From positions 1 through 39,247 of the forward strand of contig JAAYBQ010000180.1 of NCBI GenBank assembly GCA_012730035.1: a DNA stretch of 39,247 nt, given 5' to 3'. Positions within the stretch are counted from its first letter, which is position 1, and each line of letters begins with the position of its first letter. Under the pieces are notes generated by a model. The model had not been told where the DNA came from, ran no database searches, and saw nothing but the letters and a program-made list of their open reading frames with translations. Positions 6,536 to 15,074 of the stretch are shown piece by piece. Position numbers and translations under genes: made by a program. This stretch comes from Spirochaetota bacterium. GTDB lineage: Bacteria > Spirochaetota > UBA4802 > UBA5550.

Positions 6536-7546
6536 TTAAGCCTTTAATGCAAGTCCCGCGTCAAGGAGCTCCTGGTTGAGGTACGCGCCGCGGCTTATGA
6601 TGCCCTGAGCATCGGTTTCATCAGCAAGGTAGAATATGTCCGCCAGATATCGCCCGTATTTGTCATTCTTCCATGTTTTTATGCCTATTACCGGGCAGCG
6701 GGCCAGGCGCTTTTTTACATAGGCTGCGGCGCGTTCACCTTCGGCGGTGCCAAGTTCAGGCGCGTCTATTCCGCGAAGCCGCAGTTTAAGGCGGACAGTT
6801 GTATCAAAGCCGCAGTCTATGACGGCATGGATTGTGTCAGCATCTATTATATTATGGATGTATGCGCGGTAAAAGTAGAGATTATGCTCTGACCCTGCCG
6901 CGTCAAGTACGGTGTAGCCTGACGCTTTTTTACCTGTCTGTACCAGGCCGGACTGTATTGCGCCGCTGTTTTTTACATGTATGGTGCGGTATATGCTGAA
7001 CCCGCAGTCCACAGCCAGGGTTCCGGATTGCGGCACTGCAGCTGTTTTGTAGGTGTAGAGGCTGCCGCGGGTAACGGCAAGCTGCGGGGCTGTGTAGCCC
7101 TGCGCCGAGGTATGAATGCCGGATACGCGCTCCGCTTCGATTATGCTCCTGAGCTGGTAGTTTGTAAGGGATTCGCGTATTATCCTCTGTTCAAGGATAT
7201 TTCTCTGCTTCGGATTTTCAACCGTGAGCAGGGTAACGTAGTTGCTCCAGTCGATCTGCGGTGTGATTTTGTCATGGGCCCACTGGCGGCTGAACGCGCG
7301 CATATTCTTCAGGTTTGTGGCTGAGAAGCCGCGTCCGTATTGCGCGCTGAGGTCTTCAGAAAGTTTGCGGATAAGGTGTGATGCATATTCGTTCTTACCG
7401 CTGTACCTGCCTGCTGCTTCGGATATATGTTTACCGATCTGCCAGTATATTGAGATAGCCGATATCTTTGAATTTTCGCACAGAGAGGTTATTGTGCCGA
7501 GTATTTGTCCGTATTCATTGCTGTCGATGGAAGAGTTATTTGCCAT
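6536..7546 (-). CDS. DUF1016 N-terminal domain fused to thermonuclease (SNase) domain
   Basis: A 336-residue protein. Residues about 12-138 match the N-terminal DUF1016 (YhcG-type) domain: IYWQIGKHI, then GRGFSATNLKNMRAF. In YhcG this domain precedes a PD-(D/E)XK nuclease domain. Here that C-terminal part is absent. A linker (about 140-222) leads to a staphylococcal-nuclease-like domain (about 224-336). Its catalytic set appears complete by alignment to SNase: D235 and D237 (IIDADTI), R256, D261 and E264 (LRLRGIDAPE), and R299 (DKYGRYLADIF). It should cleave nucleic acid using Ca2+. There is no signal peptide, so it should act in the cytoplasm, unlike most SNases. The ribosome-binding site is weak. 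It lies directly upstream, on the same strand, of the truncated WG gene, and two perfect palindromes precede it. Confidence 0.85.
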   Translation of the reverse strand: MANNSSIDSNEYGQILGTITSLCENSKISAISIYWQIGKHISEAAGRYSGKNEYASHLIRKLSEDLSAQYGRGFSATNLKNMRAFSRQWAHDKITPQIDWSNYVTLLTVENPKQRNILEQRIIRESLTNYQLRSIIEAERVSGIHTSAQGYTAPQLAVTRGSLYTYKTAAVPQSGTLAVDCGFSIYRTIHVKNSGAIQSGLVQTGKKASGYTVLDAAGSEHNLYFYRAYIHNIIDADTIHAVIDCGFDTTVRLKLRLRGIDAPELGTAEGERAAAYVKKRLARCPVIGIKTWKNDKYGRYLADIFYLADETDAQGIISRGAYLNQELLDAGLALKA

Positions 7547-7583: not shown

Positions 7584-7613
7584 CCATAGTCTTGGCGTTA
7601 GCCAAGACTATGG
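7584..7613. repeat. Perfect inverted repeat, 13-bp arms
   Basis: Arms CCATAGTCTTGGC and its exact complement flank a GTTA loop. It lies about 40 bp upstream of the nuclease start codon and overlaps the proposed -10 box, so it could be an operator, or a hairpin in the 5' leader. Confidence 0.85.
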
Positions 7614-7641: not shown

Positions 7642-7671
7642 CGCAACAGGTCAGATATCTGACCTGTTGCG
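7642..7671. repeat. Perfect 30-bp palindrome without loop
   Basis: Both 15-nt halves are exactly complementary, centred on AGATATCT, with outer arms CGCAACAGGTC. It lies 17 bp beyond the stop of the small gene at 7688 and just upstream of the -35 box of the nuclease gene. No T-run follows on the minus strand, so it is a poor terminator; a protein-binding site or recombination site is an alternative. Confidence 0.85.
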
Positions 7672-11823: not shown

Positions 11824-13113
11824 ATGGCAATAGTGATAAAAAACGGAAGGATGATCGACCCCGCAAGCGGAACCGATGACGGGCTTGACATTGTTATAAA
11901 CGGTGACCGCATAACAGATATTGGCCGGAACCTGGCCCCCGCCGCGGCGGACACTGTTGTTGATGCGGCCGGGTGTCTTGTCCTCCCGGGACTTATTGAC
12001 ATGCATGTTCACTTCCGCGAGCCCGGACGTGAAGACGTAGAGACAATTCTGGGCGGGTCAAGGGTTGCGGCGAAAAGCGGGTTCACATCCGTTGTGACCA
12101 TGCCGAACACCCAGCCGGTTATTGACAACCAGGCGCTTGTACGCTTCATAATAATGGAGGCCGCAAAGGGGCCGATCAACGTGTTCCCTGCGGCAAATAT
12201 TACCAAGGGCGGCAAGGGTGAAGAGATTGCCGAAATGGGCGAGATTGCCGGCGGGGGCGCTGTTGCCTTTACCGACGACGGCAGGCCAGTGATGAACTCT
12301 ATAACCATGCGGCGAGCCCTTGAGTATTCGCGCATGTTCAACATGCCCATACTTACACACTCCGAGGACAAGTCACTGGCCGATGAAGGCCTTATGAACG
12401 AGGGTCTTAACTCGATCCGCCTGGGGCTTAAGGGTATACCCAACGAGGCTGAAGAGGTGATGATCGCACGCGACATCCTTCTCACAAGGCTTACGGGAGG
12501 CAGAATGCATGTATGCCACGTATCTTCAGCAGGTTCGGTTGAACTTGTAAAGCGCGGCAAGAATGACGGCATCAATGTCACGTGCGAGACCGCGCCCCAT
12601 TATTTTTCGCTTACCGATGATGCGGTTGAAAAATTTCTTTCAATGGCAAAAATGAATCCGCCCCTGCGCACCGAAAAGGACAGGAGGGGAATAATCGAGG
12701 GGCTCAGGAGCGGTGTCATCGATGTGATCGCCACAGACCACGCTCCACACGCGCTTTTTGAAAAAATGCAGGAGATGGAATACGCGCCTTTCGGCATTGT
12801 CGGCCTTGAGACATCGGTACCCCTTATTATAACCGAACTTGTGCGCAACAACAACTTTACGTACATACAGGCATTCGATAAGGTTACATGCAACCCCGCG
12901 CGCATACTGAAACTGGACAGGGGTGTACTTAAGGTCGGCGGCTACGCTGACGTGACTGTGATCAACCCCGACACAAAAATAATTATTGATGACTCATTCT
13001 TTATTTCACGCTGCAAAAACATGCCGTTCACGGGTAGTGAACTGTACGGCAGCGTGGAGCACACCATCTGCAACGGCAGGCCGGTCTATTCAAGGGGGCA
13101 GCAAGTATCCTGA
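11824..13113 (+). CDS. pyrC: Dihydroorotase
   Basis: Amidohydrolase that cyclises carbamoyl-aspartate to dihydroorotate. The 429-residue length is typical of class I dihydroorotases. Zinc ligands H61 and H63 lie in DMHVHFREPG. The HVCHVSSAGSVEL segment supplies a further metal His, and the catalytic Asp is in ATDHAPH. The ATG follows the pyrB stop by 4 nt, with a GAAGGA ribosome-binding site inside the pyrB 3' end. The stop codon shares one base with the ATG of the DNA methyltransferase, so the three genes form one operon. Confidence 0.95.
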   Translation: MAIVIKNGRMIDPASGTDDGLDIVINGDRITDIGRNLAPAAADTVVDAAGCLVLPGLIDMHVHFREPGREDVETILGGSRVAAKSGFTSVVTMPNTQPVIDNQALVRFIIMEAAKGPINVFPAANITKGGKGEEIAEMGEIAGGGAVAFTDDGRPVMNSITMRRALEYSRMFNMPILTHSEDKSLADEGLMNEGLNSIRLGLKGIPNEAEEVMIARDILLTRLTGGRMHVCHVSSAGSVELVKRGKNDGINVTCETAPHYFSLTDDAVEKFLSMAKMNPPLRTEKDRRGIIEGLRSGVIDVIATDHAPHALFEKMQEMEYAPFGIVGLETSVPLIITELVRNNNFTYIQAFDKVTCNPARILKLDRGVLKVGGYADVTVINPDTKIIIDDSFFISRCKNMPFTGSELYGSVEHTICNGRPVYSRGQQVS

Positions 13114-15074
13114 TGAATCCTGTCCCTACAGGCAAGCAGGTTCTTTCAAGTTCCGAAACAGCAAGGATGCTCGGAATCTCTGTGACCTCGGTGCGCAACT
13201 GGGTGCGTCACGGGTTCATCTCTTCAATTTCGGCCGACAGCGAGCATCTTTTTTTTCATGATGACGTTCTTTCACTCCTTTCGCGCATCGAAAACGGTGA
13301 ACTGGCAAGGCTGAAGAGCAGGGCCAACAAGACCGGATCCTTAAAAACTTTTTTGCCCGACGAACTCTTTGAAAACGATGAGAACCGAGCGAGGGTGTCA
13401 TCGCTCGCGTCAATGATAATGGAATCGGCGATTGACACTTCTTCGGCAATGTTCGCGGTTTCACTCTCGCTGCTTCATAAAAAAGGGATGCTGGGCAAAA
13501 CATCACCCGATAGTTTTATCAATGGAGAAATCCCGTCCATAAGGGGGCGTAAAAATCTTTCTGCACTGCTCAGAGCATGGCGGATTAAAACCACGTGCGG
13601 CATTAACCCTGAAGTCTTATGCGACATAATCCGTATGGATATACCCGCTCAGAAAAACATTACCGGCATTATTTACCAGTCCATTCTTGCAGAGGGTGAA
13701 AAATCCAAACTGGGCTCGTACTACACCCCGGACAGGATTACTGCTGAAATCGCTGAACGGCTGCACGGCTACGGAAACATTTTTCTTGATCCCTGCTGCG
13801 GCACCGGGCAGTTCCTTATTGCCTTTGCCGAAAAATACCGCACTCCTGAAAACCTCTGGGGCATCGACATTGACCCTGTGGCAGTGAACCTTGCGAAGAT
13901 CAACCTTATGCTCATGTTCCCCGAACTTGACCCGCGTCTTAACATTTTCTGCAACGACTCGCTGATCAACTATAACGAAAGGCTTCTCTTTGACAACATA
14001 GATTCACTGCCCGAATTTGACGTTATTGCCACGAACCCTCCGTGGGGTTCGCACTACACAAAGGATGAAATGGCGCGCATAGCATATTACTATCCGGAGA
14101 TAAGGTCGGGCGAATCGTTCTCGTGGTTCCTTGTTAAGAGCATGCGCATGCTAAGGGAGACCGGCGCGCTCTGCTTTATTATGCCCGGGGCCGTAATGAA
14201 CGTCCGCATGCACAGCGATATACGCCGGTTCATGATTAACAGCTGCTCCATCACAAGGATCGAACACAGGCCCCGGCTTTTTAAAAACGTTTTCAGCCCG
14301 GCAGTAATTGTGGACATAAAGAGGCCGGGAAAGTCCGGGGACATTGAAATTTTATGGAATGATGAACGGTACATGCTCAACCCCGTACGGTTCCGCAAAA
14401 ACCGCGACACCGTTTTTGACATAAACCTGTCACCGGAAGACGAAAAGATAATCAATAAAATTTACTCGGTTAAACATTTAACGCTCGAAGGCCGGGCAAC
14501 CTGGGCGCTTGGAATTGTTACGGGCAACAACAGCCTCTTTGTAAACAGCGCCCCCGGTGAAGGTTATGAACCCGTGATTAAAGGCAAGGACATTGAGCCG
14601 TTCAGGATACTTGAAGGCGATTCATTTATCAGGTTCGAGCGCTCAAGGTTTCAGCAGTGCGCGCCTGAAAAGGTCTTCAGGTGCGGATCAAAGCTTGTTT
14701 ACAGGTACATTGCGGACCGCCCTGTGTTCGCGCACGACTGCAGCGGCAGGCTTACTCTTAACAGCGCGAACATTGTGATACCCGAAATTCCGGGCGTGCC
14801 CGTGAAATTTATAATGGGGCTGTTCAATTCATCGGTCTACCAGTTTATATTCAGAAAAAAGTTCAATTCAGTCAAGGTGCTGCGCAGTCATATCGAGGCA
14901 CTGCCTGTACCGGTAATCAGCGGGTCCTTAATGGATGATTTTATGAAACTTGTTGCCCGCATGGAACAGGGGGATTCCATGGAGGAACTGGACAGCATGG
15001 TGTGCCGGATACTGTGCCTTGACGAAAATGATTACCGGCACATAATCAAGTCCCTGTCTAAAACTACTCCCTGA
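13113..15074 (+). CDS. N6-adenine DNA methyltransferase with N-terminal MerR-like HTH
   Basis: A 653-residue protein. Residues 11-58 form a MerR/excisionase-like helix-turn-helix (SETARMLGISVTSVRNWVR, then a LFFHDDVLSLL wing). After a helical region (60-195) comes a gamma-type amino-methyltransferase core: motif X LGSYYTP (about 200), motif I LDPCCGTGQFL (225-235), the acidic GIDIDP (250-255) and catalytic NPPW (308-311). The C-terminal ~200 residues resemble the TaqI/Eco57I-type target recognition domain (ALGIVTGNNSLFV). It should methylate adenine at a specific site. No nuclease domain or adjacent restriction gene is seen, so it looks like an orphan enzyme. TGATG overlap with pyrC (1 nt) implies translational coupling. 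Its 3' end overlaps the opposite-strand esterase-like gene by 11 nt. Confidence 0.9.
   Translation: MNPVPTGKQVLSSSETARMLGISVTSVRNWVRHGFISSISADSEHLFFHDDVLSLLSRIENGELARLKSRANKTGSLKTFLPDELFENDENRARVSSLASMIMESAIDTSSAMFAVSLSLLHKKGMLGKTSPDSFINGEIPSIRGRKNLSALLRAWRIKTTCGINPEVLCDIIRMDIPAQKNITGIIYQSILAEGEKSKLGSYYTPDRITAEIAERLHGYGNIFLDPCCGTGQFLIAFAEKYRTPENLWGIDIDPVAVNLAKINLMLMFPELDPRLNIFCNDSLINYNERLLFDNIDSLPEFDVIATNPPWGSHYTKDEMARIAYYYPEIRSGESFSWFLVKSMRMLRETGALCFIMPGAVMNVRMHSDIRRFMINSCSITRIEHRPRLFKNVFSPAVIVDIKRPGKSGDIEILWNDERYMLNPVRFRKNRDTVFDINLSPEDEKIINKIYSVKHLTLEGRATWALGIVTGNNSLFVNSAPGEGYEPVIKGKDIEPFRILEGDSFIRFERSRFQQCAPEKVFRCGSKLVYRYIADRPVFAHDCSGRLTLNSANIVIPEIPGVPVKFIMGLFNSSVYQFIFRKKFNSVKVLRSHIEALPVPVISGSLMDDFMKLVARMEQGDSMEELDSMVCRILCLDENDYRHIIKSLSKTTP

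Follow-up and report, generated by a model that had tools for sequence, protein, structure and literature searches.

A DUF1016_N–SNase fusion in a Spirochaetota bacterium as a candidate DNA-targeting nuclease of genome conflict

A gene of a Spirochaetota bacterium encodes a protein in which a DUF1016_N domain is followed by a degenerate SNase-like barrel and an SNase domain. The protein is most likely a lone DNA-targeting nuclease with a role in genome conflict, defensive or selfish, and we give about even chances to the reading that it is a cytoplasmic DNA endonuclease that works without a partner in conflicts with phages or other mobile DNA. In the mechanism that we propose, the PD-(D/E)XK end of a YhcG-type protein would have been replaced by a phage-type, two-lobed staphylococcal nuclease, and the resulting protein would be encoded by a scattered accessory gene that has no dedicated partner and would act against phage or other mobile DNA. 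Where we discuss below how the protein binds DNA, cuts and selects its targets, and what its biological role is, we infer this from sequence comparisons and structural models. The window, that is, the whole stretch of DNA that was analysed, comprises 39,247 nucleotides (GCA_012730035.1, contig JAAYBQ010000180.1, positions 1 to 39,247, forward strand), and its relevant features are listed in Table 1.

Table 1. Features of the fusion gene and its immediate surroundings in the window
Feature	Position	Strand	Basis
Fusion protein (DUF1016_N, degenerate SNase barrel, SNase), 336 aa	6536..7546	-	ORF, Pfam, AlphaFold2 model
N-terminal helical domain, aa 9-146, putatively ParB/Noc-like	7109..7522	-	Pfam, model, PDB matches
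Five-stranded middle barrel, aa 163-216, a degenerate SNase-like repeat that lacks catalytic residues	6899..7060	-	Profile comparison, model
SNase domain, aa 222-336	6539..6883	-	Pfam; PDB structural matches
Active-site segment, aa 235-264: D235, D237, R256, D261, E264	6755..6844	-	Alignment
R299, equivalent of R87 of staphylococcal nuclease	6650..6652	-	Invariant in 71/71
Perfect palindrome, 13-bp arms, upstream of the gene	7584..7613	.	Recurs in G000:C111
Perfect palindrome, 15-bp arms, upstream of the gene	7642..7671	.	Recurs in G000:C111
5′-truncated WG-repeat gene ending beside the fusion stop codon	5812..6484	-	Pfam, sequence

The original prediction had placed DUF1016_N in residues 1-140 and joined it to an SNase domain. 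Both domains were recovered by Pfam in the product of the ATG-initiated open reading frame, each above its curated cut-off: DUF1016_N (PF17761) at aa 30-138 (E 1e-23, 84.4 bits versus a cut-off of 32.8) and SNase (PF00565) at aa 254-334 (E 2.5e-7, 31.5 bits versus 21). No match to YhcG_C, the PD-(D/E)XK domain PF06250, was obtained by Pfam in the window protein or in the aligned members of its family, and this domain was matched in 12 of the 12 YhcG proteins used for comparison. The PADLOC candidate defence family PDC-S02 matches the N-terminal half of the fusion only, at about aa 3-145, and not the nuclease part. No export signal, as had been predicted, is visible by eye in the N-terminus (MANNSSIDSNEYGQ). 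The same genome has a second copy with the same architecture on another contig (C185), 36% identical to the fusion of the window, and one separate SNase gene; no DUF1016_N gene other than the two fusions was found in it. Because of this second copy and of 71 full-length homologues, the fusion is not an assembly accident.

An AlphaFold2 model of the protein was built on 67 homologues (mean pLDDT 91.3, pTM 0.70). It shows helices at aa 9-146, the five-stranded barrel at aa 165-215 and the SNase domain at aa 225-329. When the complete model was compared with the PDB, staphylococcal nuclease came out best (E 6e-6), in agreement with the SNase fold that had been expected. The barrel repeats the start of the SNase domain (LYTYK...VDCGF versus LYFYR...IDCGF), with the motif VDCGF at aa 179-183 matching IDCGF at aa 243-247. 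A comparison of the barrel and SNase profiles gave a probability of 73% and a score of 32.7. In none of 60 column shuffles did these values exceed 0.8% and 11.1, and a reversed profile gave 1.6% and 13.5. The VDLGF residues of the barrel are present in 65 of 71 aligned fusions. Since the barrel has no catalytic segment, it reads as a dead tandem copy of SNase; it would probably contribute to gripping nucleic acid or to the positioning of the active lobe. Three relatives (L099, L101 and L103) have no middle barrel, and in their profile matches DUF1016_N is directly followed by SNase.

The barrel-plus-SNase half is matched by the phage endonuclease family phrog_452 (E 3.2e-25 over aa 201-331), a full-length member of which, AMM45036.1 of Bacillus phage SP-15, has the same order of barrel and then SNase. 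Like the fusion, these endonucleases combine a degenerate barrel and an SNase domain with DLGF-type motifs; unlike the fusion, they have no DUF1016_N, and the 336 aa of the window protein, with DUF1016_N in front, do not correspond to the standalone phrog_452 size of about 200 aa. With staphylococcal nuclease (thermonuclease, PF00565) the fusion shares the fold and the catalytic positions, the equivalents of D19, D21, R35, D40, E43 and R87. It differs in having no secretion signal and in that its SNase is preceded by a DNA-binding-like domain and a dead repeat. The six catalytic residues that had been named at the outset (D235, D237, R256, D261, E264 and R299) are all present at their positions, and with this complete set the SNase lobe is, as judged from its sequence, intact. 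This C-terminal lobe would be the one that cuts, probably with Ca2+; the activity that characterises SNase is a Ca2+-dependent cleavage by which a 3′-phosphate is left.

The N-terminal domain had been proposed to target DNA, and the structural comparisons point in that direction. Modelled alone (pLDDT 89.9), it gave ten best PDB matches that are all ParB or Noc, each of them weak and by itself not significant (E 0.47-1.7). In addition, 18 of the 71 aligned proteins match the ParB HTH family, and the HTH_ParB matches of relatives fall at aa 87-140. The agreement among the best PDB matches together with the HTH_ParB matches supports a ParB/Noc-like helix-turn-helix in this domain, through which DUF1016_N may bind DNA. 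A helical fold that contains a helix-turn-helix would thus be shared with the DNA-binding domains of ParB and Noc (PF17762), but the fusion has no ParB CTPase domain and the similarity is weak at the sequence level.

Relatives were collected by a scan of one genome per species, which produced at least 80 loci; as the scan relied on one motif, taxa other than those recovered are under-represented. The alignment of 71 full-length proteins was assembled from these loci, the copies of the source genome and Leptospira plasmid records. Among the matches listed, the homologues belong mainly to Omnitrophota, Leptospiraceae and Alphaproteobacteria, with additional ones on Leptospira plasmids. In individual Pfam scans of the aligned proteins DUF1016_N was found in 71/71 and SNase in 68/71. 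D235, D237, T238, R256 and R299 are invariant in all 71, E264 is kept in 67, and at the position of D261 48 proteins have D, 19 have N and four have W. As this Ca2+-ligand position is N or W in 23 of 71, classical cutting is not required of every member. The four proteins with W are the Leptospira plasmid fusions L028-L031, which are under purifying selection in spite of the loss of the ligand aspartate. Nei-Gojobori estimates of dN/dS in twelve close pairs, which include paralogues within one genome and plasmid copies, ranged from 0.08 to 0.25 over the full sequence and from 0.04 to 0.25 within the SNase part. These results indicated that the fusion is a real protein family under purifying selection.

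DUF1016 has been described as a PD-(D/E)XK family (PMC1913061) and as cargo of mobile elements (PMC4316617). YhcG/DUF1016 nucleases (PF17761 plus PF06250; PADLOC PDC-S02) have in common with the fusion the DUF1016_N domain, the size of about 340 aa, the habit of occurring as lone genes and the presence on plasmids and mobile elements. They differ from it in that the fusion has a two-lobed SNase instead of YhcG_C and forms its own branch in the tree of the N-terminal domain. In this tree the 71 fusions and 12 YhcG proteins, each verified to contain DUF1016_N and YhcG_C, are separated by one branch (SH-aLRT 92), so that a single nuclease swap, as had been suggested for this gene, suffices to explain the split. 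A quick full-length tree groups the named Leptospiraceae, the Alphaproteobacteria and the Myxococcota sequences into one branch each; the long branch of the window protein lies close to Omnitrophota sequences, in a position that is not firm. No published DUF1016–SNase fusion was found in the open-licence literature, where the DUF1016 papers do not contain the term SNase; the fusion joins parts of known families.

The fusion is scattered over several bacterial phyla and is often present in many copies. Many relatives occur in genomes with 4-18 matches, counts that include partial copies; examples are 15 in a 1.8-Mb Omnitrophota genome, 14 in Leptospiraceae UBA2033 and 18 in a deltaproteobacterial bin. 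On plasmids, the near-full-length matches listed are all from Leptospira, and most of the other annotated DUF1016_N matches listed are PDDEXK proteins. Six pattern matches in viral contigs included no confirmed relative of the fusion. Among phage records only SP-15 had a coverage resembling that of the full-length fusion; SP-15 was rejected as a phage-borne fusion, since the coverage comes from two neighbouring proteins, the upstream one of which, as read, is unlike DUF1016.

The palindromes near the gene had been taken as the flanks of a mobile cassette. Both are located on one side of it, between the start of the fusion and the next open reading frame, and form strong hairpins when folded (z -10.1). 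One further occurrence of the pair lies at G000:C111:14946-15033 in this genome, between ordinary chromosomal genes and with no fusion gene nearby. Their position on the same side and their recurrence without the gene led to rejection of the palindromes as cassette ends; the pair is a dispersed intergenic feature. Such hairpins, about 30 bp apart and found twice in the genome in unrelated intergenic regions, possibly represent a dispersed repeat family. An integron gene cassette was also rejected, because with the palindromes upstream of the gene there is no attC behind it. No structured RNA family was detected in the window by Rfam. The broken neighbour that had been noticed is indeed there: it is the WG-repeat gene next to the stop codon of the fusion, in which one in-frame TAA breaks the reading upstream of the repeats.

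A defence island is not what the window contains. Read from translations, it is otherwise occupied by housekeeping genes (pyrB, pyrC, tsaD, fumarase, tmk and pyruvate kinase). The gene that adjoins the fusion on the side opposite the WG repeats encodes a 105-aa zinc-ribbon-like protein, for which no homologue was found in 19 genomes of the family. Directly after pyrC lies a lone gene for an Eco57I/TaqI-type N6 DNA methyltransferase with a specificity domain and an HTH (13113-15074), and no restriction partner is evident for it. The paralogue on contig C185 adjoins DUF2442 and DUF4160 genes, which can be read as toxin-antitoxin genes. No conserved partner gene emerged from the 103 immediate neighbours of relatives, among which no Pfam family occurs more than three times and no PADLOC family more than four; ORF6N, Bro-N, DUF4143 and AbiEi each appear two or three times. 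Several Leptospiraceae copies adjoin genes for HsdM and HsdS (type I restriction-modification), an AAA_21 ATPase (putative AbiEii-type) or YhcG, and raw counts, taken without a matched control, showed no overall enrichment of defence genes among the neighbours.

Arguments for a role in genome conflict include the filing of DUF1016_N proteins by PADLOC as candidate defence family PDC-S02, the location of some relatives beside restriction-modification, AbiEii-type or YhcG genes, the DUF4160/DUF2442 genes beside the paralogue and the sporadic distribution. Against a defensive function speak the lack of a conserved partner and of a general defence neighbourhood and the housekeeping character of the window; a count of 4-18 matches per genome and stable orthologues at some loci would also be unusual for a typical defence gene.

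The mobility of relatives is supported by Leptospira plasmids, dispersed copies and decayed relics. The repeated unit in Leptospiraceae consists of the fusion gene and a non-coding trailer of about 620 bp with a common end point (GCGTTAGGG...AGCCCGGCGCATTAGCCGAG...GCGCAACGCC) and unrelated flanks. The fusion genes next to the trailer copies are full, truncated or decayed; at one trailer copy no gene remnant was detected. Dispersed repeats with decayed relics were observed at L049:7921-9700 and in L053, L057, L060, L107, L038 and L041. By inspection, the trailer was rejected as an integron attC because its core-like repeats (GCGTTAGGG...GCGCAACGCC) are in the wrong order, and Rfam found only two tRNAs in the Leptospiraceae loci and no family in the trailer. 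A Leptospiraceae contig also has a long tandem array with a period of about 100 bp (L109:9769-11395). In genome G049 a Y1 transposase gene is directly upstream of the fusion; at L003:2617-3242 the two copies of a 38-bp direct repeat (97% identical) enclose such a gene (IS200-like), which is directly upstream of a fusion gene. Two of the Leptospira plasmid fusions L028-L031 lie among RHS-type cassettes and two next to Rpn (Transposase_31) genes. Several fusion loci of Omnitrophota are stable orthologues. At one Omnitrophota locus (G116; L061, L062, L069) the upstream flank of one locus is combined with the downstream flank of another in a related genome, as a result of either recombination between copies or misassembly. 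The mobile units of Leptospiraceae and the stable orthologues of Omnitrophota show that the family has both mobile and settled members.

These observations could also be accounted for by a selfish nuclease, homing-like or transposon-borne, the cutting activity of which mainly promotes its own spread or retention and not host defence. We regard this explanation as somewhat unlikely. It would fit the 9-14 profile matches per Leptospiraceae genome, the gene-plus-trailer repeats with their common right end and decayed relics, the Y1 transposase upstream of one fusion and the solitary, partnerless genes, and a precedent for nucleases that aid transfer exists in the Rpn family (PMC5350276). In a single instance, two related genomes become collinear in the chromosomal flank 13-15 bp past the trailer end; however, the left flank differs, so this right boundary does not amount to a clean empty site for the unit, none of which was found. 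Its left end is undefined, and neither terminal repeats nor target duplications were established for it. The stable Omnitrophota loci, the strong purifying selection even between paralogues and the absence of a trailer from the window copy also count against selfishness. In a specific version, which we consider quite improbable, the gene and its non-coding 3′ trailer would form a selfish unit of a new class that spreads through bacterial genomes by SNase cutting at sites chosen by the ParB/Noc-like domain. If true, this unit would resemble homing endonucleases in logic but would use a nuclease fold that is not known to act in this way.

It is unlikely that the fusion is a host protein for nucleic-acid maintenance or regulation (repair, recombination or RNA turnover) that expanded by duplication. 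Lineage-wise clades, the many paralogues in small Omnitrophota and Rickettsiales-like genomes and the stable orthologous loci are compatible with such a function, but just 8 of the phylum's 296 genomes passed the full-profile cut and, within the family, the source genome alone did so (1 of 20), as expected if the gene is not a common housekeeping one in this clade, and fusions are carried on Leptospira plasmids. SNase is a known effector domain and plasmid copies lie among RHS-type cassettes, but a secreted or injected effector, or an inert relic, is very improbable given that no signal peptide or delivery domain was seen and that active site and reading frame are conserved under purifying selection.

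Returning to the DNA-targeting nuclease in genome conflict, DUF1016/YhcG proteins are widespread and present on plasmids and mobile elements, and they have no established function. The family described here is one of cytoplasmic bacterial SNases with an internal dead repeat, and in some small genomes it has expanded to roughly ten copies or more. A natural exchange of nucleases, with the N-terminal domain retained, suggests that this domain is an independent targeting unit, which would give a testable reading of DUF1016_N, namely ParB/Noc-like DNA binding.
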